Shown in pieces: positions 1 to 8,539 of a DNA stretch of 8,539 bases. Source of the DNA: Acidobacteriota bacterium (GTDB taxonomy: Bacteria; Acidobacteriota; Terriglobia; UBA7540); contig JAJYJL010000262.1 of the NCBI GenBank assembly GCA_021789565.1, forward strand, positions 1 through 8,539, read 5' to 3'. Below the pieces are notes generated by a model. The model had not been told where the DNA came from. It searched no databases and worked only from the letters and a program-made list of their open reading frames with translations. Within the stretch, counting starts at the first letter, position 1. Every line of letters starts with the position of its first letter. A program made the translations under genes and the position numbers.

Positions 1-153
1 ATGGCAGACCTGAAGAACCGTTGGCGCGGCAGGAAAGACAAACCCGCCTGGGTAGTCAGGATGATCGCGCTGCAAAGGAAAACGCTGGTGGTGTGCAAAT
101 CATGCCACGATGCAATCCACGCAGGCAGACCTTTACCCGACAAATGCATGTGA
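1..153 (+). CDS. ltrA: Group II intron reverse transcriptase/maturase, C-terminal HNH end (partial)
   Basis: These are the last 50 codons of a group II intron-encoded protein. The frame is open from base 1 to the TGA at 151-153. The peptide contains ADLKNRWRGRKDKPAW, then RKTLVVCKSCHDAIHAGRP, which is the second half of the HNH (H-N-H/CxxC...CxxCHxxIH) domain found at the C terminus of many bacterial maturases. In this family the HNH domain nicks the second DNA strand during retrohoming. The ATG at base 1 is almost certainly internal, because the RT, maturase X and first half of the HNH domain would lie upstream. The ORF lies inside the intron RNA and stops just before domain V, as expected. 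The symbol ltrA is used only as the generic family name. Confidence 0.85.
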   Translation: MADLKNRWRGRKDKPAWVVRMIALQRKTLVVCKSCHDAIHAGRPLPDKCM

Positions 154-161
154 GTTCTGGA

Positions 162-195
162 GAGCCGGATGACGCCAAAGGGTCAAGTCCGGTTC
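162..195 (+). ncRNA. Group II intron catalytic domain V
   Basis: This is a 34-nt hairpin, the standard length of domain V. The lower stem pairs 162-169 with 188-195 (GAGCCGGA with TCCGGTTC, including a G-U). Two unpaired bases, A186 and G187, form the usual two-nucleotide bulge, and the upper stem pairs TGAC 170-173 with GTCA 182-185. The catalytic AGC triad is present at 163-165. The apical part reads GCCAAAGG, so the usual GNRA-type GAAA loop appears to be replaced by CAAA. The hairpin starts nine bases after the maturase stop codon, where domain V is expected. Confidence 0.85.
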
Positions 196-252
196 GGAGG
201 GGGGTCTGGGGAAAAGTGCCTGCAAGGGTAACTCGCCCCTTTCCTACCCTAC
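196..252 (+). ncRNA. Group II intron domain VI region and 3' splice site
   Basis: This G-rich then C-rich stretch after domain V can fold back on itself (GGGG at the left, CGCCCC and CCTACCC at the right). A246 sits seven bases from the end and is the likely branch-point nucleotide. The segment ends in ...CTAC, matching the AY end of group II introns. The exact pairing inside the hairpin was judged by eye and is uncertain. Confidence 0.65.
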
Positions 253-684
253 TACTGCTTGATGCAGGCCTCCCGGCGCACCTGGCGCATCGGTCAGGTA
301 CACGATGTGGATGTGCACTTTGCCGTGTACCGTGACACAATGGAGCATCGAGCGGCGAGCCTCGTGGGACAGAAACTCGCTGCGGCGCAGCTCATCTACG
401 GAGATAGTGTGCAAGGCGCACTCGTCGATCAGGCGGCATCAGGACACGGGTTCCTCGCCGACCTAGCCCGGAGTGTCATCGAGCGCTCGCAAGTCGCCGA
501 TCTCGGTCATCTCTTTCGGCAAGTCTCGATGGCCGGAGGGAACGGGCATGCAACGAGCGAGTTCATCGGAGCCGAGCTATCTGAGGCAGCCGATGAGGCC
601 GAGATTGTAGCGGGCATGAAGGCAGCTCTTCAAGAGCCTCCGATGCCGGTGGTGATCAGCACCCGTCAGATGGCGCTCTTCTGA
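253..684 (+). CDS. SNF2/DEAD-type helicase, C-terminal 3' exon (interrupted by group II intron)
   Basis: This is the downstream exon of a superfamily 2, SNF2-like helicase gene. Reading from TAC at 253 gives YCLMQASRRTWRIGQ, then VDVHFAVYRDTMEHRAASLVGQKLAA. QASRRTWRIGQ is helicase motif VI, which carries the arginine finger used in ATP hydrolysis (QxxxRxxRIGQ in the family). The segment before it is normally a Y-S-L-Y/W-type strand, consistent with YCLMQ directly following upstream coding sequence. All ATP-binding motifs (Walker A, DExH) must lie in the 5' exon, outside the window. Only after splicing would a complete helicase mRNA exist. A TTG at 259 could be misread as a start but is mid-domain. 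The protein ends in RQMALF, which resembles a sliding-clamp-binding peptide. Helicases of this type commonly occur with RadC genes on integrative elements and plasmids; their exact role is not established. Confidence 0.8.
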   Translation, partial: YCLMQASRRTWRIGQVHDVDVHFAVYRDTMEHRAASLVGQKLAAAQLIYGDSVQGALVDQAASGHGFLADLARSVIERSQVADLGHLFRQVSMAGGNGHATSEFIGAELSEAADEAEIVAGMKAALQEPPMPVVISTRQMALF

Positions 685-690
685 TAGATC

Positions 691-729
691 GAGAGGGAGC
701 GGAGCATGATTCTGCTCCCTCTCTTTTTT
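691..729 (+). terminator. Rho-independent terminator after the helicase gene
   Basis: A perfect 10-bp stem (GAGAGGGAGC at 691-700 with GCTCCCTCTC at 714-723) can extend inward by a few G-U and Watson-Crick pairs. It is followed immediately by six T residues (724-729). It begins six bases after the helicase stop codon. Only 26 bases separate it from the next gene's ATG, too few for a full promoter, so the downstream genes need read-through or a promoter inside the helicase gene. Confidence 0.85.
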
Positions 730-755
730 CGAGTAGTGTAAGGAGGCAAGAGGGA

Positions 756-1220
756 ATGGACAAGCTGGAGTATCCGCTCCGAGTAGTGTTCTGGGATGGA
801 ACGGATGAAGATGAATCGGCCCATGATGGTTATGAGGTACATGGTCCCTTTCGGCGACCGGGCGACCTGTGGCGGTGGGCCAACGCTCAGTGCTATGTGA
901 ATGCCTATCCCGCCTGGCGCGATGACATCAATGCGATCATCCAGAAGCAAAGCCGGCATGGATGGCACGCCATAAAAATGGCGCTGGATGATTGGGCCAT
1001 GCGTGATCTCGAGGAATATGAATCTCCCTATGCGGATCGAGCACGCATCCTGCAGGGCGACGCGGCGTGGCGCGCTTGGCAAGCCGGATGGCGAGACAAA
1101 GATGGCGGGGAGTCAACAGTGCCAGATTCGTGGCGGCCAATCGGGCCGGTGAGCTCGTGCGGCTGTGAAGATTGGCCGTGCTGCGTGCATGCCGACGATT
1201 ATGCCTTTGTGCCTTCATGA
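756..1220 (+). CDS. Hypothetical protein, tryptophan-rich with Cys-rich tail
   Basis: This 154-residue soluble protein has no function I recognise. The start is well supported: AGGAGG at 741-746 sits nine bases before the ATG. The protein contains eleven tryptophans, many in the pattern expected of a compact helical fold (LWRWANAQCY, AWRAWQAGWR). It ends in a short cysteine cluster, CGCEDWPCCVH, with Cys at 135, 137, 142 and 143 and His at 145, which could bind a metal. There is no signal peptide or membrane segment. It is the first gene of a close cluster with an 85-residue ORF and radC, and starts just after the helicase terminator. Small uncharacterised proteins between a helicase and RadC are typical of integrative-element backbone DNA. 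Its coding status is fairly sure; its role is unknown. Confidence 0.65.
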   Translation: MDKLEYPLRVVFWDGTDEDESAHDGYEVHGPFRRPGDLWRWANAQCYVNAYPAWRDDINAIIQKQSRHGWHAIKMALDDWAMRDLEEYESPYADRARILQGDAAWRAWQAGWRDKDGGESTVPDSWRPIGPVSSCGCEDWPCCVHADDYAFVPS

Positions 1221-1226
1221 GGGGAA

Positions 1227-1484
1227 ATGCCTGTGCCTCTAAAGACCTGTGGGCAGTTCAGCATGGAAGATGGCGTCCTCACGGCCCCTCGCGTTTACAT
1301 GGAGGAGCAAGGGAACACTCTCGTGGACAAGATCCTTGCTGGAGATGATATGATTTTCAACATGACTTCAGAGCAATCACCTGACGTGGAGACAGCGATC
1401 CTCGTTCGGCTGCAGACGGACTATGCGGGGTGGATTGGGTTCAAAGAGGCAGAGGGCTGGCTGAGGCATGACCATCAGCAGTAA
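1227..1484 (+). CDS. Small hypothetical protein
   Basis: This 85-residue, acidic, soluble protein has no family I recognise. It lies six bases after the stop of the upstream gene and overlaps the first 17 bases of the radC-like gene, so the three are likely co-transcribed and translationally coupled. The Shine-Dalgarno-like GAGGGG at 1219-1224 overlaps the upstream stop codon and is only two bases from the ATG at 1227. A GTG at 1233 would have a better eight-base spacing and may be the true start, giving VPLKTCGQF as the N terminus. There is no Cys cluster, signal peptide or membrane segment. The position and spacing support it as a real gene. Confidence 0.55.
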   Translation: MPVPLKTCGQFSMEDGVLTAPRVYMEEQGNTLVDKILAGDDMIFNMTSEQSPDVETAILVRLQTDYAGWIGFKEAEGWLRHDHQQ

Positions 1485-2235
1485 CTTGGCAGAAGACCAC
1501 TTAGGCGGCCACCCCTGGTCACAGCTCTCGTACTTTGCGGGCGAAGAGGATGGGACTGCAGAGCGATTGTTACGGGAAATGCCTGAAGCTGAGCAGCCGA
1601 TGGCGCGCTTGGAACGCCTCGGCCCAGCGGCATTGTCGACTCCCGAGCTCCTCCAGCTGCTTCTGGATGCACGAACCGATCCGATGATTCCTTTGCGCCT
1701 GCAGGCGACCTGGCGCACCTTAAATCAAATGGCGCATGCAAGCCCACTCGATCTGTTGCGTGTAGAAGGAATGACCCGCCTACGATCTGCACGGCTGCGT
1801 GCGGCGATGGAGCTGGGAGGACGCGCAATGAACGAGCTGCCGGAGGAACGTCCGATCATCCGATCCCCGGCCGATGCCGTGCGCTTGTTTGCTCCCGAGA
1901 TGGCGGGATTGGAACACGAACAAATGCGCGTGCTGTGGCTCAACACCAAGAATCAGGCCATGGGGCAATCTCTGATCTACCAGGGCTCCGTTCACACCAC
2001 GGTGATCCGGGTCGCAGAGATCTTCCGCGAGGCGGTCCGTCGCAATGGTGTGGCCATCCTCGTTGCCCATTCGCACCCTTCCGGCGATCCTACTCCCAGC
2101 CCTGAAGATGTCGCGGTGACAAGGGAAATTGTGCAATCAGGCAAGCTTCTCGACATCGATGTACTCGATCATCTGATCATTGGTGATCCTAACCGCTGGG
2201 TGAGTTTGAAGGAACGCGGGTTAGGATTCGGCTAG
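1468..2235 (+). CDS. radC: RadC family protein (JAMM/MPN domain)
   Basis: This 255-residue protein matches the RadC layout. A helix-hairpin-helix type N-terminal region has RLERLGPAALSTPELLQLLL (about 47-66) and LLRVEGMTRLRSARLRAAMELG (96-117). The C-terminal JAMM metal-binding domain has HSHPSGDPTPSPED at 201-214, holding the two His and the Asp of the motif. Other family-typical segments are LWLNTKNQ and GSVHTTVIRVAEIFREAV. In RadC proteins the JAMM motif suggests a metal-dependent hydrolase, but the old DNA-repair assignment from E. coli was later questioned and the activity is not settled. Copies on mobile elements are frequent and may be element-specific paralogues. The ATG at 1468 overlaps the upstream ORF; an internal ATG at 1579 (MPEAEQPMARLERLG) looks more like a typical RadC N terminus and could be the true start. 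Confidence 0.88.
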   Translation: MTISSNLAEDHLGGHPWSQLSYFAGEEDGTAERLLREMPEAEQPMARLERLGPAALSTPELLQLLLDARTDPMIPLRLQATWRTLNQMAHASPLDLLRVEGMTRLRSARLRAAMELGGRAMNELPEERPIIRSPADAVRLFAPEMAGLEHEQMRVLWLNTKNQAMGQSLIYQGSVHTTVIRVAEIFREAVRRNGVAILVAHSHPSGDPTPSPEDVAVTREIVQSGKLLDIDVLDHLIIGDPNRWVSLKERGLGFG

Positions 2236-2243
2236 AAATGAAT

Positions 2244-2291
2244 GAGAGGGATGCGGCGACTGCGTCCCTCTCTGTATCAGGGCCTTTTTTT
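2244..2291 (+). terminator. Probable terminator after radC
   Basis: A stem forms between GAGAGGGA at 2244-2251 and TCCCTCTC at 2265-2272. It extends inward by about five further pairs (with two G-U) to a three-base loop. A run of seven T lies at 2285-2291, twelve bases beyond the stem, so it is not textbook but is plausible. The stem arms are the same eight bases as in the terminator at 691-729. It starts eight bases after the radC stop codon. Confidence 0.6.
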
Positions 2292-2494
2292 GTTTTGGTT
2301 TCGTGCCCAGCTCGCGTTAAAGAGCTAGATGACCATTGTGATTAGCTGGTGAGCAGAGTTCGCTTCTATCTGCCAAGCATCGTACCAAGCTAGGTGTTGT
2401 TGGACGAGCGATAGTAGTGATTTCTGTAGGTAGGCGGTCAGGACCCTCTAGACGGCAGGAGAACAATTCCACCCTGCAATGAGTCGTCTACTCA
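2292..2494. other. Gene-poor spacer between radC and the nuclease operon
   Basis: I see no convincing gene, RNA gene or insertion sequence here. A minor inverted repeat AGCTC/GAGCT (2309-2313 and 2322-2326) is present. The stretch separates the putative element backbone (helicase, radC) from the three-gene nuclease operon, so it may hold the junction of a cargo insertion. No attachment-site repeat can be recognised inside the window. Confidence 0.4.
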
Positions 2495-2507
2495 AGTTTG
2501 CGAAACT
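2495..2507. promoter_or_regulatory. Possible operator palindrome upstream of the -35 box
   Basis: AGTTT-GCG-AAACT is an inverted repeat with 5-bp arms and a three-base centre, ending two bases before the TTGACA of the operon promoter. Its position suits a regulator-binding site. No regulator gene is encoded nearby in the window, and a short palindrome of this size can occur by chance. Confidence 0.3.
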
Positions 2508-2509
2508 AT

Positions 2510-2537
2510 TTGACATTTCTCTCTTTCACCGGATAAT
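2510..2537 (+). promoter_or_regulatory. Sigma-70 type promoter of the nuclease operon
   Basis: A perfect -35 box TTGACA (2510-2515) and a near-consensus -10 box GATAAT (2532-2537) are separated by 16 bases. The predicted transcript would begin near 2544, leaving a leader of about 50 bases before the ATG at 2593, with AGGAGA at 2581-2586 as the ribosome binding site. It is the only strong promoter-like sequence I see for the three genes that follow, which are closely spaced and co-directional. Confidence 0.65.
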
Positions 2538-2592
2538 AATTCTGAGTTCGGGGTTCCATAGGCCAATCATGTGATTTCTAAGGAGAAAGCCG

Positions 2593-4878
2593 ATGCCAAA
2601 CTCAGAGGCGAGAAACCTTAGGGCGAGGACCGTCCCGACCGAGCCCAAGCCTACCCGCAGAATCGCCGTCATTGCACCGCGGCCGCTGAGGCTCGCTTTC
2701 GTAATCAACGCCAACACTTCAAAGCAGCAATTACTCAAGTACCTGAAATACAACTCCAACATCTGGGGTGGTTATTACAACTTATTCATTCCAACCGACG
2801 GAAAAACACTTCGACAAGACTGGTGCCAAGTGTTGCGGCGGAATGATCCTGATCTAGTCATTTTTGGAGGGCGTGTTTCAGCTAAACTCGTCACTGAAGT
2901 GCTTCAGAGAACAAGTCCGTTTTACGCGTGGAAATGGAGCAACCGCGCGTTGGCTCAGCGTCCTCCCGAGGCCGACATTTTCGGCTCCATACCCATGCTT
3001 TACCCCTTACTGTCACTCTATGAGAAGAGCCGACCTACATCAAAGTCAAACGTCCGAGTGCCGAAACTAGAACCGAGATACGAATACCCCGAATACATCG
3101 CCGCCCTATTTGGAGTACAACCGAGTGATATTGCCGAATTCTGTGTCGAGGGACTCCAGGGTGAATTTGTAGACGTCAAGAACGATAGCCTGGAAATCTA
3201 TCTAGCGCGTATTTCGGAGCTCGGCAATTTGCTTACGCCAATTCGCTTGACCAAAGTCGAGACGTCAACCTTTGCAGAGGCGCCGGGGATCGACTTCACA
3301 ATTGTTATCGCAAGCGGGAATCCTGCTCCCGATTTCTGCTTGTTTTGGAACATGCGTATGCTATCATTCCTCGGCCGTGAACGCGTGTTCATCTTGCCAT
3401 CCACTCTGTTGAGGTCCGAGCAGGATATCCAGTTTCTCGGCAAATGGTGCAACGAATCAGCAGGTGACACAAACCACATTACTCTCGCCTCGGCAACGCT
3501 CGGCAGGCGACGGCTTCTGGATCTCAGAAGTCGACTGCTGCCTCACTTGAATAGCAGGATCGAGCATGTCGACATATGGTTCTCGAATTTCCTGTTAGGA
3601 GGTCTTGGTGTTCACGGCAAGCAAGAGAAGCAAGAGATAAATTTCTCAGATGGAGATTACCGTTTCAAGGCCTTACCTCTCCCGTTTGTTGAACAACTGC
3701 ATGATGGAACTTGGGTGGTCGACATGCAATTGGAGGGCGAGGGCATTGCGCCAACAGGCTTCTGGCCTCCCAAAAGCGTCGAGATTGATCGGTTGCTTTC
3801 CGGTAGGCCCTCAGTTCTGTCCATAGATTTGAGTCGTGGCATCTCCACTCGCATTGCGAACGGGCAACTGTCACGCCGTACTCGACGGGATAAAGAATAC
3901 CTCTCGGGAAAGCTACCGACTGAAGAGGAAGTATTCAAAGCATTGCTCGAAGGGAAAGGTTATCAGGCAGCGGCCACCGATAAATGTCGATACGTTCGGG
4001 GCGTAACAGATCTCAGCGGTGGACTGCAAAACCTTGGCATATGGCGAGACCCTAAAGTTCGGAATATGTTCCTGGAGATGGGGAAAGGCGGCACCTTTAC
4101 AGTAAATAGGATGATGCAAATTCTCAGGCCAGGCGACGATGACGCTAAGCGGGATGCTTATCGCCAGATGATTGCTGACCTAACCTTGGAAGGTGTCTTT
4201 TTGCGAGGGTATCAAATTCGCTGCCCTGCTTGTGACCTGACCCGTTGGTATGCGACCGATGTAATCGAAGAGGAAATGCCCTGCGCGGGATGTTTGACCC
4301 TAATGCAACCTCCCCTCGAAGCTCCTTTTCATTACAAGCTTAATGAACTAGTAGCTCGAGCTATTGAGCAAGGATCTGGACCAGTACTGTTGACTTTGCA
4401 GTTGCTCCAAATGCTCTGTCGCGTAAGTTTCTTATCCCTCCCCGGGGTCGCGGTTCGAAAGGGAGGCGAAACGGATCTAGATATCATTGCAAGTTGTGAC
4501 GGGCATTTGGTTCTGGCGGAGTGCAAAGACCTTAGACGAGGGGCGAGTGGTCGTACGGTCAAAGAGATATCTTCTCAGCTCGCCGAGATTGTGGATATAG
4601 CTAAAGACCTGGACGCCGATATGGTTTTTCTCGCCGTTTTGTCGCCGACTATTCCCAAAACGCTCAGAACAAGAGTTGATAATCTTCAGAAGCACACAAA
4701 GTCTGTTGCCGTGCACCTGCTGACCGCTGCTGACTTGGAAAGAGGCTTCAAAGCGAGGCCGCGTCCGGCGGATCCCACAAAGGATGACCCATTGTCTCTG
4801 CAAGATCTCTTGCCTTCGCTAAAGACCCATGCAAGAGGATGGGTTAGAACTCCGGGTGTAAGAAGGACATCAGTCTAG
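2593..4878 (+). CDS. Large protein with zinc ribbon and C-terminal PD-(D/E)XK nuclease-like domain
   Basis: This 761-residue protein is not one I can name. It is soluble, with no signal peptide or membrane segment. Residues 33-93 form an N-terminal segment (LRLAFVINANTSKQQL, then NIWGGYYNLFIPTDG at 56-70, then DPDLVIFGG at 85-93) that looks like a distinct alpha/beta domain. A long middle region (about 94-530) is unassigned. A zinc ribbon follows: C544-P-A-C547 and C564-A-G-C567. The C-terminal part shows a nuclease core: ETDLDIIAS (D628, D630), then LVLAECKD (E643, K645), then a beta strand MVFLAVLSP, the D-Xn-ExK pattern of PD-(D/E)XK enzymes. The start has AGGAGA seven bases or so upstream. 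It is the first gene of the operon. A DNA-cleaving effector or sensor in defence is my inference; a repair or DNA-processing role is possible. Confidence 0.7.
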   Translation: MPNSEARNLRARTVPTEPKPTRRIAVIAPRPLRLAFVINANTSKQQLLKYLKYNSNIWGGYYNLFIPTDGKTLRQDWCQVLRRNDPDLVIFGGRVSAKLVTEVLQRTSPFYAWKWSNRALAQRPPEADIFGSIPMLYPLLSLYEKSRPTSKSNVRVPKLEPRYEYPEYIAALFGVQPSDIAEFCVEGLQGEFVDVKNDSLEIYLARISELGNLLTPIRLTKVETSTFAEAPGIDFTIVIASGNPAPDFCLFWNMRMLSFLGRERVFILPSTLLRSEQDIQFLGKWCNESAGDTNHITLASATLGRRRLLDLRSRLLPHLNSRIEHVDIWFSNFLLGGLGVHGKQEKQEINFSDGDYRFKALPLPFVEQLHDGTWVVDMQLEGEGIAPTGFWPPKSVEIDRLLSGRPSVLSIDLSRGISTRIANGQLSRRTRRDKEYLSGKLPTEEEVFKALLEGKGYQAAATDKCRYVRGVTDLSGGLQNLGIWRDPKVRNMFLEMGKGGTFTVNRMMQILRPGDDDAKRDAYRQMIADLTLEGVFLRGYQIRCPACDLTRWYATDVIEEEMPCAGCLTLMQPPLEAPFHYKLNELVARAIEQGSGPVLLTLQLLQMLCRVSFLSLPGVAVRKGGETDLDIIASCDGHLVLAECKDLRRGASGRTVKEISSQLAEIVDIAKDLDADMVFLAVLSPTIPKTLRTRVDNLQKHTKSVAVHLLTAADLERGFKARPRPADPTKDDPLSLQDLLPSLKTHARGWVRTPGVRRTSV

Positions 4879-4933
4879 ACGATAGGAATGTGGTTATTTT
4901 CTCGGACTTGCAAAGCACACACCATCCCAGGGG

Positions 4934-6382
4934 GTGCTAAAATTGGCTAAACCAGCGGATGAGGCCCAGCGTTTTCTTGCAGCGGTAGCAGCATCTCCTT
5001 ATCTTTGGCATTCCATCGACATCCGGGTGATGGCCGTCTACATCGATGGAGCTTGGCAGAATATCGCGACGCGTTGTTACCTCGATCCAAGATCGATGGG
5101 GCAGGTAGAAAGGTTCTCACATTTGCCGGCGACAGAGTACCTGTCCTGTTGGCAGTCTATCCTGTCTGTCAGGTCATTGCCTGCTGTATTGAACAGTGTT
5201 GCTGAGGGCATGCTACAAATCAAGAATGTGGATGTTCATTATCTGTCAGAAGTTGACTCTCCCACCAGGGAGCGAGCCTCCTATTCAAATGCTTCTTACT
5301 ATTTTAGTTTGTTATCCAGCCAGTCTCGTAAAGTCTATCCCCCTTGGAGCGCTCACGGCTTGATTATGTCCGGGCCTCAGATTGATGACCTCCTTCGGCG
5401 TGTGCCCTTGTCACGTTCTGAACTAGACAATTCCATTCGCGCACTAAAACACCCGTACGATGGGCTTGACGGGTTGGCAAAGGATGTGCTTGGCTTTATT
5501 GAGCCTCTTCAGTCTGGCCGTAGCGCAACCTTTGAAATATTCGCACCACTGCAAGGCAGGTTCAAACCAGAAGAATGTCGACTTGATCAAGGAGTGCTAA
5601 GTCTCTCAATATTGACAGATTCCATTACTTTCTCGAAGCACTGCAACGTGGGCTTTGTCGCGACAGAGGCTGGAGCTGCTCCCGTTTCTGATACGGTTGA
5701 GCTGCACTCGGAGAAATGGATATCAAGTGGCTCGCAATACCTCTTCAAAGGTGAGCGACCTATGGCAGCGTCCCGGGTCACCTTGTTTCTAAGGACAGCA
5801 AGTGCTATCGCCGATACGTTGACGCTAGTAGATATATCGGCAGAGGAACAAAACGCTAGAATCACAGCTTACCAGGTTTTCGACCCTGACTTGGATCTCT
5901 TTAGGTCATCGCTCAAGCCAGCCCGTTCAGGAGCCGGCGATTTTGAACGTGCTGTTGGACGGCTGCTGCATTTTTGGGGATTCAATGTTGATGTTCTGGC
6001 AGGATCCAGTCGACTTGGAGATGCAGTCGATGTAATTGGCTACGCATACCCATTGCCTGCAGTACTTGCGGTTGAGTGCACACTTGGAAGCATAGGAGCC
6101 GGGGGGAAACTTGGCAAACTGGTCGCACGTACGACTCAGATTCGCCAAGCACTTCCGGGTTACGAAGTCATCGGGGTCATTGTCACTGCGCTGAGGCGAT
6201 CAGATGTCTCCAAAGGCGAGCTCAGTGCTGCGAGCGCGGATGGACTCGCGGTATTGACGCAGGAGGATCTTGAGCAACTCCTGGAATTCCTTTCGACTGG
6301 CAAGTCTCTATCCCATTTGCTCGAGCTCATTCGCTCCAAAGTCCCTTCTATGGGTGCTCTTGATCGCTGGATCGGGCAGTAG
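4934..6382 (+). CDS. Unknown protein with C-terminal restriction endonuclease-like domain (variant ECT core)
   Basis: This 482-residue soluble protein has a long N-terminal region (about 1-330) that I do not recognise and a C-terminal nuclease-like fold (about 335-455). The visible core motifs are FERAVGRLLHFWGF (E338), LGDAVDVIGY (D363, D366) and VLAVECT (E381, T383), then GGKLGKLVAR and the strand YEVIGVIVTAL. In a canonical PD-(D/E)XK site the position of T383 is lysine. K392 or K395 might substitute, or the domain may be non-cleaving. The GTG at 4934 gives the longest frame, but GGGGGTG at 4930-4936 resembles a ribosome binding site and would serve a TTG at 4943 (MAKPADEAQRF) with six-base spacing. 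The gene lies 55 bases after the first operon gene and 15 bases before the third, so the products probably act together. Confidence 0.65.
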   Translation: MLKLAKPADEAQRFLAAVAASPYLWHSIDIRVMAVYIDGAWQNIATRCYLDPRSMGQVERFSHLPATEYLSCWQSILSVRSLPAVLNSVAEGMLQIKNVDVHYLSEVDSPTRERASYSNASYYFSLLSSQSRKVYPPWSAHGLIMSGPQIDDLLRRVPLSRSELDNSIRALKHPYDGLDGLAKDVLGFIEPLQSGRSATFEIFAPLQGRFKPEECRLDQGVLSLSILTDSITFSKHCNVGFVATEAGAAPVSDTVELHSEKWISSGSQYLFKGERPMAASRVTLFLRTASAIADTLTLVDISAEEQNARITAYQVFDPDLDLFRSSLKPARSGAGDFERAVGRLLHFWGFNVDVLAGSSRLGDAVDVIGYAYPLPAVLAVECTLGSIGAGGKLGKLVARTTQIRQALPGYEVIGVIVTALRRSDVSKGELSAASADGLAVLTQEDLEQLLEFLSTGKSLSHLLELIRSKVPSMGALDRWIGQ

Positions 6383-6397
6383 GAGGATAACTGATCG

Positions 6398-7531
6398 ATG
6401 CCGAATCGAATTCGAAAGCGCAAGAAATTGATAGCCCCAAAAGGGTCAAGTCGGGAAAAGGGCGATATTGTTGAACGGATCGTGGCCGATATGCATGAGG
6501 AATATGGGGTAAAGGTTGAGCAGAATGTCTTTCTCGCTGCCCAGGATGGAGGCGGAAGGACACGCGAGATTGATGTGCTGCTGTCTTCTGAAGTGGCAGG
6601 ATATCCCATTCGTGTTGCCATTGAATGCAAGAATGAGAAGGGTCGAGTAGGCATTGATGAGATGGATGAATACATAGGGAAACTCGGCGACGTTGGGATA
6701 CCAACGCAGAACAGCGTATTCGTTTCTGCTAGTGGGTATACGAGTGATGCTATCCTACGCGCACAAAAGGTAGGTATCAAGACCGCCGTTTTGCGAGATG
6801 CCACCGATAGTCTTCCACAGCAGATCCGTAAGGCTTTTCAGTCAATCATATACTTGCTACTGACAATCACTAATATCCAGGTCCAAAGCGATGCCGAGGG
6901 TCCGGTCTTAGCCGGGGAAATGCTATTCTTTCGAAATCAAGATGGTCGAGTGTGTGGCGCGATACCAGATCTAGTGTGGCACGAATGGCGTTCGGGCAAC
7001 ATTTCAGACCAACTTGGGAATCAACAGATCGAAGTGACCATCCCCAGTGAATGGTTGCACATTGTCAATGGACAGGTGCTCAGGTTGCCTAAAGTGAAGG
7101 TTGACGTGCAAATCACGGGGCACATGGTATCATTTCCCGGCTCGGTCTCCCGTCATCTACTAGTCAATGCATCAGATCAAAAGGTAGCCAAGTGGCAGAT
7201 TCAAGCGAAATTTGAGAGACCGCAGGGTACTTACTCCGTACAATCGTTCTTGACGGAAGAGGAGTTTCAGAAGATTCCCAAGCAAGAGAGCGGAATCGAA
7301 GTAATCGTGACTCGCATGCGCCTGCCCAGGATAAGGTGGGGCCCCCTATACTGGCCACCAAGTGGGGGCGCCGTCGATAGGTTGGTTGCCCTAACTAGGC
7401 AGGCTCTCGCCGAAGGAAGAACATTGGATCTATCATCAATGGACCTTGCAGCGCTGGAAGGCACCGACTTGAGAAAAGTATGGGAACCCATTTGGAAGGA
7501 GCATCCGTCTGCTAAAAAGCCATCCGATTAA
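6398..7531 (+). CDS. Mrr-like restriction endonuclease fold protein
   Basis: This 377-residue soluble protein has a clear N-terminal PD-(D/E)XK domain (about 18-135). It shows E26 in GDIVERIVADMHEEYG, then REIDVLL (D59), then RVAIECKN (E76, K78), then VFVSASGYTSDAILRAQKVGIKTAVLRD. This order is that of Mrr-type restriction endonuclease domains, which in Mrr and related type IV enzymes cleave modified or foreign DNA. All core catalytic residues are present, so nuclease activity is plausible. Residues 136-377 form a C-terminal part I do not recognise, with predominantly strand-like stretches. AGGAGG at 6381-6386, overlapping the upstream stop codon, supports the ATG at 6398. As the last gene of the operon it likely works with the two preceding proteins. 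Calling it a defence nuclease is inference from fold and context. Confidence 0.78.
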   Translation: MPNRIRKRKKLIAPKGSSREKGDIVERIVADMHEEYGVKVEQNVFLAAQDGGGRTREIDVLLSSEVAGYPIRVAIECKNEKGRVGIDEMDEYIGKLGDVGIPTQNSVFVSASGYTSDAILRAQKVGIKTAVLRDATDSLPQQIRKAFQSIIYLLLTITNIQVQSDAEGPVLAGEMLFFRNQDGRVCGAIPDLVWHEWRSGNISDQLGNQQIEVTIPSEWLHIVNGQVLRLPKVKVDVQITGHMVSFPGSVSRHLLVNASDQKVAKWQIQAKFERPQGTYSVQSFLTEEEFQKIPKQESGIEVIVTRMRLPRIRWGPLYWPPSGGAVDRLVALTRQALAEGRTLDLSSMDLAALEGTDLRKVWEPIWKEHPSAKKPSD

Positions 7532-7565
7532 TATCGACAGAAGATAGTATTGAGCTTTTCTCAGG

Positions 7566-8539
7566 TCAGTTGACAAGGTTCTCGCAGCGAGAATCCGGGT
7601 GCTTGAGCCTACGTGCCATCAATGTTGCAACAAGGCCAAGAATTGCGGACAGAACAAACCCGGTGCGGTAACCCCCAAGCATACCGAGCCCAAAGTTTCC
7701 TACGAGCGGCCCGATCACTCCTCCAATCCCCCACCCCAAGAAAACGATGCCATAGTTTGTACCCACATGGCGTGTGCCAAACCAATCGGCATTGATGGCT
7801 GGGAACAGTGTCAGTGTACCGCCGAACGTCAGCCCGATAAGGAGATAGAGCAGCAGCATCAGCCAGGCACTCGCGGCGAGGATCGGTATGAGGGATACTG
7901 TCATCGCAGTTAGGACAAAGTTCAGTGCCATGGTCTTATGACGACCAATCCGATCCGAGACCCACCCGACGATCATCCGCCCGAGTGCATTCCAGATAGC
8001 AAGCCACCCCACGAGGACCGCCGACAGTTCGGCCGGCTTGCCCGTAAAGAGATTCGCACCGATGATAGGGAGCGCATTCAACCAACCGAGCCCCTGCGCG
8101 GTCGCGAGATTATCGAAAGAAAACGAATCGAGAAAGTTCTTGGCGAAACTGATCACCATCAAGCCGGCAGCCGTGGAGAAGGCGTACATCAGAACCAGAA
8201 GGTAGGTGTGCCTCATCCGCAAGAGCTCGCGCGGACTGTAATGTCGCTTGTGCTCACCTCCTACAGAGAGCGAAGCCACAGAACCCGGATTCCAACCGGC
8301 AGGACGCCAGCCTGAAGGCGGATTCGTCAGAAGGAGTGACCCGAGAACAATCATGATGAAGAAAGCAATGCCGAGTTGGAAGAAGGTGTTCCAGATCCCG
8401 GTTTCCTGAATCATCGTATTCGCGAGGGGGCCAAAGATAGCTGCTGAGAGTCCGAAGCCGAAGACGGCGAGGCCGGTGACCAGACCTCGCCTGTCGGGAA
8501 ACCAGTGGATCGCAGTCGCCACCGGTGCGGCATAGCCCA
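7566..8539 (-). CDS. OFA-family major facilitator superfamily transporter (5'-truncated by the window)
   Basis: This is the C-terminal two thirds of a 12-helix inner-membrane transporter of the oxalate/formate antiporter (OFA) group of the major facilitator superfamily. The frame stays open through a GTG at 8522 to the window edge, reading GYAAPVATAIHWFPDRRG, the loop and start of helix 5 conserved in OFA proteins. The GTG is therefore internal and the true start lies beyond 8539. GLAVFGFGLSAAIFGPL is the next helix, and GWVSDRIGRHK is the MFS motif between helices 8 and 9. Several strongly hydrophobic segments follow, ending near GFVLSAILGLVATLMARRL with a basic cytoplasmic tail. Family members exchange or import small organic anions such as oxalate or formate, but the substrate cannot be told from sequence. 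It converges on the nuclease operon with a 34-base gap and shares no evident function with it. Confidence 0.88.
   Translation of the reverse strand, partial: GYAAPVATAIHWFPDRRGLVTGLAVFGFGLSAAIFGPLANTMIQETGIWNTFFQLGIAFFIMIVLGSLLLTNPPSGWRPAGWNPGSVASLSVGGEHKRHYSPRELLRMRHTYLLVLMYAFSTAAGLMVISFAKNFLDSFSFDNLATAQGLGWLNALPIIGANLFTGKPAELSAVLVGWLAIWNALGRMIVGWVSDRIGRHKTMALNFVLTAMTVSLIPILAASAWLMLLLYLLIGLTFGGTLTLFPAINADWFGTRHVGTNYGIVFLGWGIGGVIGPLVGNFGLGMLGGYRTGFVLSAILGLVATLMARRLKHPDSRCENLVN

Follow-up and report, generated by a model that had tools for sequence, protein, structure and literature searches.

The nucleases that come closest to the genes described here stem from different settings. Can2, Card1 and Cdn1 (DUF1887, the CARF4 nucleases of type III clustered regularly interspaced short palindromic repeats (CRISPR) systems) have a C-terminal PD-(D/E)XK nuclease domain, FokI and R.BspD6I/Nt.BspD6I combine a cleavage domain with recognition domains, and the Mrr-family restriction endonucleases form the family PF04471. 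Moreover, auxiliary and backup nucleases are described beside the cores of bacteriophage exclusion (BREX) and BREX-related (BR) systems (PMC12839542). In this work, we analysed three consecutive genes, A, B and C, in a window of 8,539 nucleotides, i. e. the whole stretch under study (Acidobacteriota bacterium, assembly GCA_021789565.1, contig JAJYJL010000262.1, positions 1 to 8,539 of the forward strand). By sequence and structure models, each of the three proteins is predicted to carry a different PD-(D/E)XK core. The new element is protein A: its architecture has no match in Pfam, PADLOC, NCBIfam or PHROGs, and its C-terminal half is related to the ancillary nucleases of type III CRISPR systems. 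The explanation that accounts best for the locus, and to which we give an even chance, is a cassette carried by a mobile element, in which three anti-invader nucleases, largely autonomous in their action, are co-transcribed and were transferred together.

Genes A (2593-4878, 761 amino acids), B (4934-6382, 482 amino acids from a GTG start) and C (6398-7531, 377 amino acids) are all intact and lie co-directionally on the plus strand, separated by gaps of 55 (A-B) and 15 bases (B-C). Across 200 dinucleotide shuffles of positions 2509-7531 the longest open frame had 253 codons, and we take the three predicted genes to be real. Upstream of gene A lies a strong sigma-70-like promoter, TTGACA-16-GATAAT (2510..2537, plus strand), that matches the consensus at 11 of 12 positions; shuffling predicts 0.033 promoter-grade sites per window for both strands, and such a site appeared on the plus strand in one of 300 shuffles of positions 2236-2592. 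Each of the genes is preceded by a stretch that by eye resembles a Shine-Dalgarno sequence. For gene B the spacing, again by eye, favours a TTG codon at 4943 over the GTG at 4934; with this start the protein has 479 amino acids and the gap to gene A 64 bases. The three genes are probably co-transcribed from the one promoter as a predicted operon.

Several observations place the three cores in one fold class: PF04471 for C, model comparison for A and B, and profile comparison with Card1 for all three. The profile reference consisted of ten Card1-family proteins from genomes (ten of 11 loci used). The probabilities against the Card1 nuclease domain were 83 for A, 71 for B and 81 for C, always with the nuclease part, whereas the other pieces of the three proteins reached at most 0.9. 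The core-to-core profile matches among A, B and C are weak (at most about 30), so the cores represent different families of this one fold class.

Protein A is predicted to combine two Rossmann-like domains, a connector, a zinc-ribbon-like motif and the nuclease, all encoded on the plus strand. In the first Rossmann-like domain (residues 31-195, 2683..3177) strands and helices alternate in the predicted model, and R30, W58-G59-G60 and P86-D87 are conserved. The second one (residues 232-330, 3286..3582) has the conserved residues D247, W252, R255 and S300, and it occupies the CARF position when the model is aligned to Card1 (6wxw; 232..715 versus 2..373, root mean square deviation 14.1). CARF and SAVED profiles gave no match to the Rossmann-like domains, with a probability below 1 for the CARF profile. 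These domains are followed by a helical, winged helix-turn-helix-like connector (residues 443-532, 3919..4188), by the zinc-ribbon-like motif C544-x2-C547...C564-x2-C567 (residues 544-567, 4222..4293), whose cysteines are kept in 19/19 relatives, and by the PD-(D/E)XK domain (residues 581-717, 4333..4743). In its core, [D/E]628-x-D630...E643-C-K645, the first acidic position, D630 and E643 are present in 19/19 relatives and K645 in 18/19; the catalytic codons are located at 4480-4482 (D630), 4519-4521 (E643) and 4525-4527 (K645). At E <= 1, the protein of the window matched nothing in Pfam, PADLOC or PHROGs. NCBIfam returned only RimP (E 0.11) and a PDB profile search MotA (E 0.07), and we put both down to chance. 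When 13 members of the A family were scanned, Pfam found an Ada zinc-binding domain in one of them (9.3e-7) and otherwise weak matches, among them Hjc (two members) and Mrr_cat (one member), and PADLOC gave single weak matches to Cas12f (0.0085) and CARF4--CARF_PDDEXK (0.037).

Protein B (gene 4934..6382) seems to consist of an N-terminal alpha+beta part, an immunoglobulin (Ig)-like beta sandwich (residues 207-306, 5552..5851) and a FokI/BspD6I-like PD-(D/E)XK cleavage domain (residues 310-480, 5861..6373, plus strand) with E338, D366, E381-C-T383, K392 and K395. Both D366 and E381 are found in 10/10 relatives, and position 383 is a threonine in nine and an alanine in one of them; two invariant lysines are located nine and twelve residues past the threonine that replaces the catalytic lysine. 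To our knowledge, BspD6I likewise lacks the PD-(D/E)XK lysine. The protein of the window had no match in Pfam, PADLOC, NCBIfam or PHROGs at E <= 1 and none in the PDB profile search, and two of ten B-family members weakly touched Mrr_cat in Pfam (best 0.0048). As judged by eye, distant B-like proteins (L044 8839-10470 and L045 9120-10673) have SATT in the place of the VECT of B, and thus the acidic catalytic residue seems to be lost in them.

Protein C (gene 6398..7531) belongs, by its domain match, to the Mrr_cat family and has one further domain: residues 25-125 (6470..6772) match PF04471 (E 1.2e-6, 29 bits at a cut-off of 21), and residues 146-377 (6833..7528) form a conserved domain without family assignment that has a near-invariant YWPP motif. 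The residues of the core, E57-x-D59...E76-C-K78, are kept in 118, 119, 119 and 119 of 120 relatives, respectively (the best 120 of 273). PADLOC gave only PDC-S02 (E 0.0054, residues 58-124), and a match to Lon (E 0.097) was put down to chance. A stretch that resembles the C core (45% over residues 17-129) is present near an AbiEii-type toxin gene on a Bradyrhizobium plasmid (L050 4429-6342).

An earlier note on this DNA, written from the letters alone, had proposed one promoter followed by three co-directional genes with gaps of 55 and 15 bases, which agrees with the open reading frames and with the 11/12 promoter. Its claim of three different PD-(D/E)XK cores is borne out by PF04471 (C), the models (A, B), the Card1 profiles and the conserved residues. 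It had also seen no ATPase, methyltransferase or helicase, and scans of Pfam, PADLOC, NCBIfam and PHROGs recognised none of these families inside the trio. Likewise, its remark that the combination was not recognised as a named system holds for the libraries used: A and B of the window are without a match in Pfam or PADLOC 2.0.0 at E <= 1, newer systems being absent from PADLOC 2.0.0.

The composition of the genes speaks for a common origin. The G+C content at third codon positions (GC3) is 53% in A, 49% in B and 52% in C as compared to 64 and 66% in the flanking genes, radC (1468..2235, plus strand; PF04002, E 5.1e-37) and a major facilitator superfamily (MFS) transporter gene (7566..8537, minus strand) that converges on gene C, with the stop codons 34 bases apart. 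The trio differs from the flanks (838/1620 versus 377/578 third positions, p 2e-8), whereas A, B and C do not differ among themselves (p 0.16, 0.61 and 0.49). Similarly, the mean codon-usage distance is 0.08-0.09 within the trio, 0.11-0.13 between the trio and radC or the MFS gene, and 0.10 between the latter two. Since GC3 and codon usage are common to A, B and C and unlike both flanks, the trio probably arrived together: The cassette looks as if its genes came in one acquisition, or else from similar sources. A mobile-element setting, as had been suggested earlier, is plausible.

According to the explanation that we favour, the cassette would have been transferred as one into its position between radC and the MFS gene, in an apparent mobile element. 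The N-terminal Rossmann-like domains of A would sense a signal, which may be a small ligand or a cue given by an invader or by damage; this would free the C-terminal nuclease, as in Can2, Card1 and Cdn1, so that A could then cut nucleic acid. B (FokI/BspD6I-type) and C (Mrr-type) would share the promoter but act on their own as nucleases, either reinforcing the response against foreign nucleic acid (DNA or RNA) or serving as its backup; their recognition functions would reside in the domains without family assignment, in agreement with the earlier note. A might thus be a sensing effector with interchangeable partners. We infer co-transcription, a role in defence, control of A by a ligand, and independent action of the three proteins.

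By analogy, the settings of A-like and C-like relatives suggest a function in defence. AbiEi/AbiEii genes lie about 0.5 kb from the A-like gene of L001 in divergent orientation, a Polbeta nucleotidyltransferase gene with HepT is found about 0.2 kb downstream of that of L042, and on a short contig (L040, 3-5327) the N-terminal part of an A-like gene adjoins an HmaA-type helicase (PADLOC, 1660 bits). On a Burkholderia glumae plasmid (L048, 774-13251), a phage-integrase gene and three consecutive tyrosine recombinases are located near the A-like gene. After the recombinases come a gene for a small protein that weakly matches a helix-turn-helix, the A-like gene and a gene for 464 amino acids without family assignment. 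A relative of C adjoins a CHAT-domain protein (L043), and another one, on a Rubrobacter plasmid, lies in a helicase/PD-(D/E)XK/ATP-binding/integrase stretch. A recA-like gene was seen by eye at most 1.5 kb from an A-like gene in two genomes (L037 3034-4107, L039 1464-2588), both from the phylum of G001, which is the Chloroflexi genome that carries L001.

The locus of the closest full-length A relative in the whole-genome samples (L080, 38% identity) has a different arrangement: In L080 6755-11258, the A gene stands between two other genes of the same strand, X and Y. X lies about 80 bases before the A open frame, and the open frame of Y begins about 55 bases past A, with the first ATG at about 155. 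By eye, X has an EVK motif; the hhalign probabilities of X and Y as nucleases are at most 2.1, and we do not claim this function for them. With this locus in view, it is tempting to read the trio of the window as an A-centred modular system in which A is the sensor and core effector, with B and C as interchangeable accessory or backup nucleases recruited into its operon, as is reported for BREX and BREX-related loci. The auxiliary nucleases known beside BREX and BR cores (PMC12839542) and the composition common to A, B and C are also in line with such a system. We nevertheless consider it rather unlikely: neither X nor Y gave a family match better than chance or a match to a nuclease profile, the A-like genes of L002 and L041 have no recognisable partner beside them, and relatives of B and C occur without A.

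The earlier note had put forward one module, possibly a multi-subunit restriction or abortive-infection system. An obligate three-subunit machine of this kind would fit the one promoter, the short gaps and the uniform composition, but it is improbable in view of the distribution of the relatives. This was followed in genomes of two phyla, that of G001 and that of G002 (the Desulfobulbaceae genome with L002), and by contig sharing; the searches for A and B relatives scored only the candidates with most shared words, and highly diverged partners could escape. Among 301 genomes of the phylum of G001 that were searched for all three proteins, five had an A-like, two a B-like and 19 a C-like gene (one match full length, the others nuclease core only), and in 0/301 were two of the three present together. 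Of 247 genomes of the phylum of G002, searched for A and B, three had A and none had B, and the class of G001 (346 genomes) yielded five with A, two of which are included in the phylum counts above. Neither B nor C was detected in G632, and no C in G773, both of which have an A-like gene; the empty B results in G001, G002, the phylum of G002 and G632 come without a positive control. G838 is the exception: It harbours a short A-like gene and, about 5 Mb apart, a partial match to the C profile (nuclease core only, E 1.4e-6). At 12 A-like loci (L001, L002, L037-L042, L048 and L080-L082, with L037, L039 and L040 being short contigs), B or C was present in 0/12. Moreover, the only contig common to 12 A, 9 B and 118 C relatives (C: from the best 120 of 273), as judged from the size of each cluster's longest contig only, was the window's own contig of 20,202 bases. 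Assuming B to follow A invariably at a distance of 55 bases, its loss beyond the end of each of the six A contigs in the estimate would have a probability of about 1e-5, and the reverse estimate for A missing from five B contigs is 0.002; both figures are rough, take positions as random and leave out A P0004, P0007 and P0010-P0013 as well as B P0015, P0019, P0020 and P0023. The contig, whole-genome, viral and plasmid searches brought up no further copy of the trio: The genome contig search yielded two loci with A relatives, the viral contigs contained none of the three and phages no C. A paper describing the trio did not turn up in the open-licence PMC text. An obligate trio is not supported in the sample examined. 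Of the idea of one module, the common GC3 and the likely single transcript stand, but the obligate multi-subunit system does not; in what could be sampled, the homologues do not co-occur, an outcome that the earlier note had named beforehand as speaking against its proposal.

A bolder idea concerns A itself. Short A-like proteins without the Rossmann part (L037 5502-7011, L081 7184-8763 and L082 7589-8958) consist of connector, zinc motif and nuclease, and each of the three genes has a DUF4269 gene as its immediate neighbour; the open frames overlap in two cases, and about 0.1 kb separates them in the third. This count excludes L039, whose A-like gene is truncated at the end of the contig. By eye, DUF4269 has an SDLDI-type nucleotidyltransferase motif. 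It might be speculated that A is the first member of a nuclease family that is activated by a signal and independent of CRISPR, with tandem Rossmann-like sensors, a zinc ribbon and a Can2-type nuclease, which would be triggered by a nucleotide signal from nucleotidyltransferase-fold neighbours and would have B and C as swappable partners. The DUF4269 genes and the AbiEii- or MNT-type genes beside the two full-length A relatives of L001 and L042 can be cited for this reading, to which we assign a small probability.

Type IV-like restriction, in which one or more of A, B and C would cut DNA with foreign modifications, is a slim prospect: C has an Mrr catalytic domain and the domains of B and C without family assignment could read modified DNA, but the library scans detected no known reader domain for modified bases in A, B or C. 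As regards restriction-modification of types I, II and III, no methyltransferase was recognised in the trio. Finally, a role in processing DNA on behalf of the mobile element, by recombination or repair, rather than in defence is very improbable, since the radC neighbourhood, the single-source label 'Holliday junction resolvase' on one A (P0002) and one B relative (P0015) and the weak Pfam Hjc matches of two A relatives (best E 0.072) are opposed by a resolvase name that fits the fold class only, by three different architectures and by the presence of defence or toxin-antitoxin genes next to several A-like genes.

The remainder of the window contains a fragment of an SNF2-type helicase gene (259-684) that lies upstream of the trio and outside it. 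Within positions 1-684, the end of a group II intron was found at 160-252 (RF00029, E 1.6e-8), with a maturase-like tail ahead of it as seen by eye. The intron seemingly interrupts the helicase gene just before motif VI, and the tail of the gene resumes at about 259-684. There is no CRISPR repeat array in the 8.5 kb window.

Should A indeed be a nuclease of the Can2 type acting independently of CRISPR, the way in which type III ancillary nucleases couple signal and sensor would extend beyond the CRISPR setting. The cassette would show that mutually unrelated nucleases, each working alone, can be assembled into a single transcription unit that is transferable, and it is a caution that a short nuclease operon need not equal one machine. 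The loci with BREX or Hma systems have similarly unrelated PD-(D/E)XK genes as auxiliary nucleases near other defence genes, and the A-like gene of L040 adjoins an HmaA helicase; in contrast, the window has no BREX or Hma core, and its nucleases stand alone. Residues 25-125 of C carry the full catalytic set of the Mrr-family endonucleases with a score above the Pfam cut-off, whereas its C-terminal 230 residues are a separate conserved domain (YWPP). B shares, according to the model, the fold of the cleavage domain with FokI and R.BspD6I/Nt.BspD6I; however, the lysine of the FokI ExK motif is replaced, giving ExT (ExA in 1/10 relatives), and the recognition domains are replaced by the Ig-like part and an N-terminal part (residues 1-206) without family assignment. 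A is not classed as a Can2-type protein because PF09002 (Card1_endonuc) does not match it, no Pfam family doing so at E <= 1, because its sensor is not CARF-like by sequence, the CARF signal of Can2, Card1 and Cdn1 not being seen in A by profile, and because no CRISPR locus was seen in the window or in the loci read: inspection by eye of the genes around the 12 A-like loci gave no type III CRISPR or cas genes. Most likely, A is a Can2-type-like nuclease in its C-terminal half: In the model, it has both the C-terminal PD-(D/E)XK domain and the helical connector of Can2, Card1 and Cdn1, to which it adds a second Rossmann-like domain and a four-cysteine zinc-ribbon-like insert in a chain of 761 amino acids, as compared to 342-437 residues in the chains of Can2, Card1, Cdn1 and VC1899.

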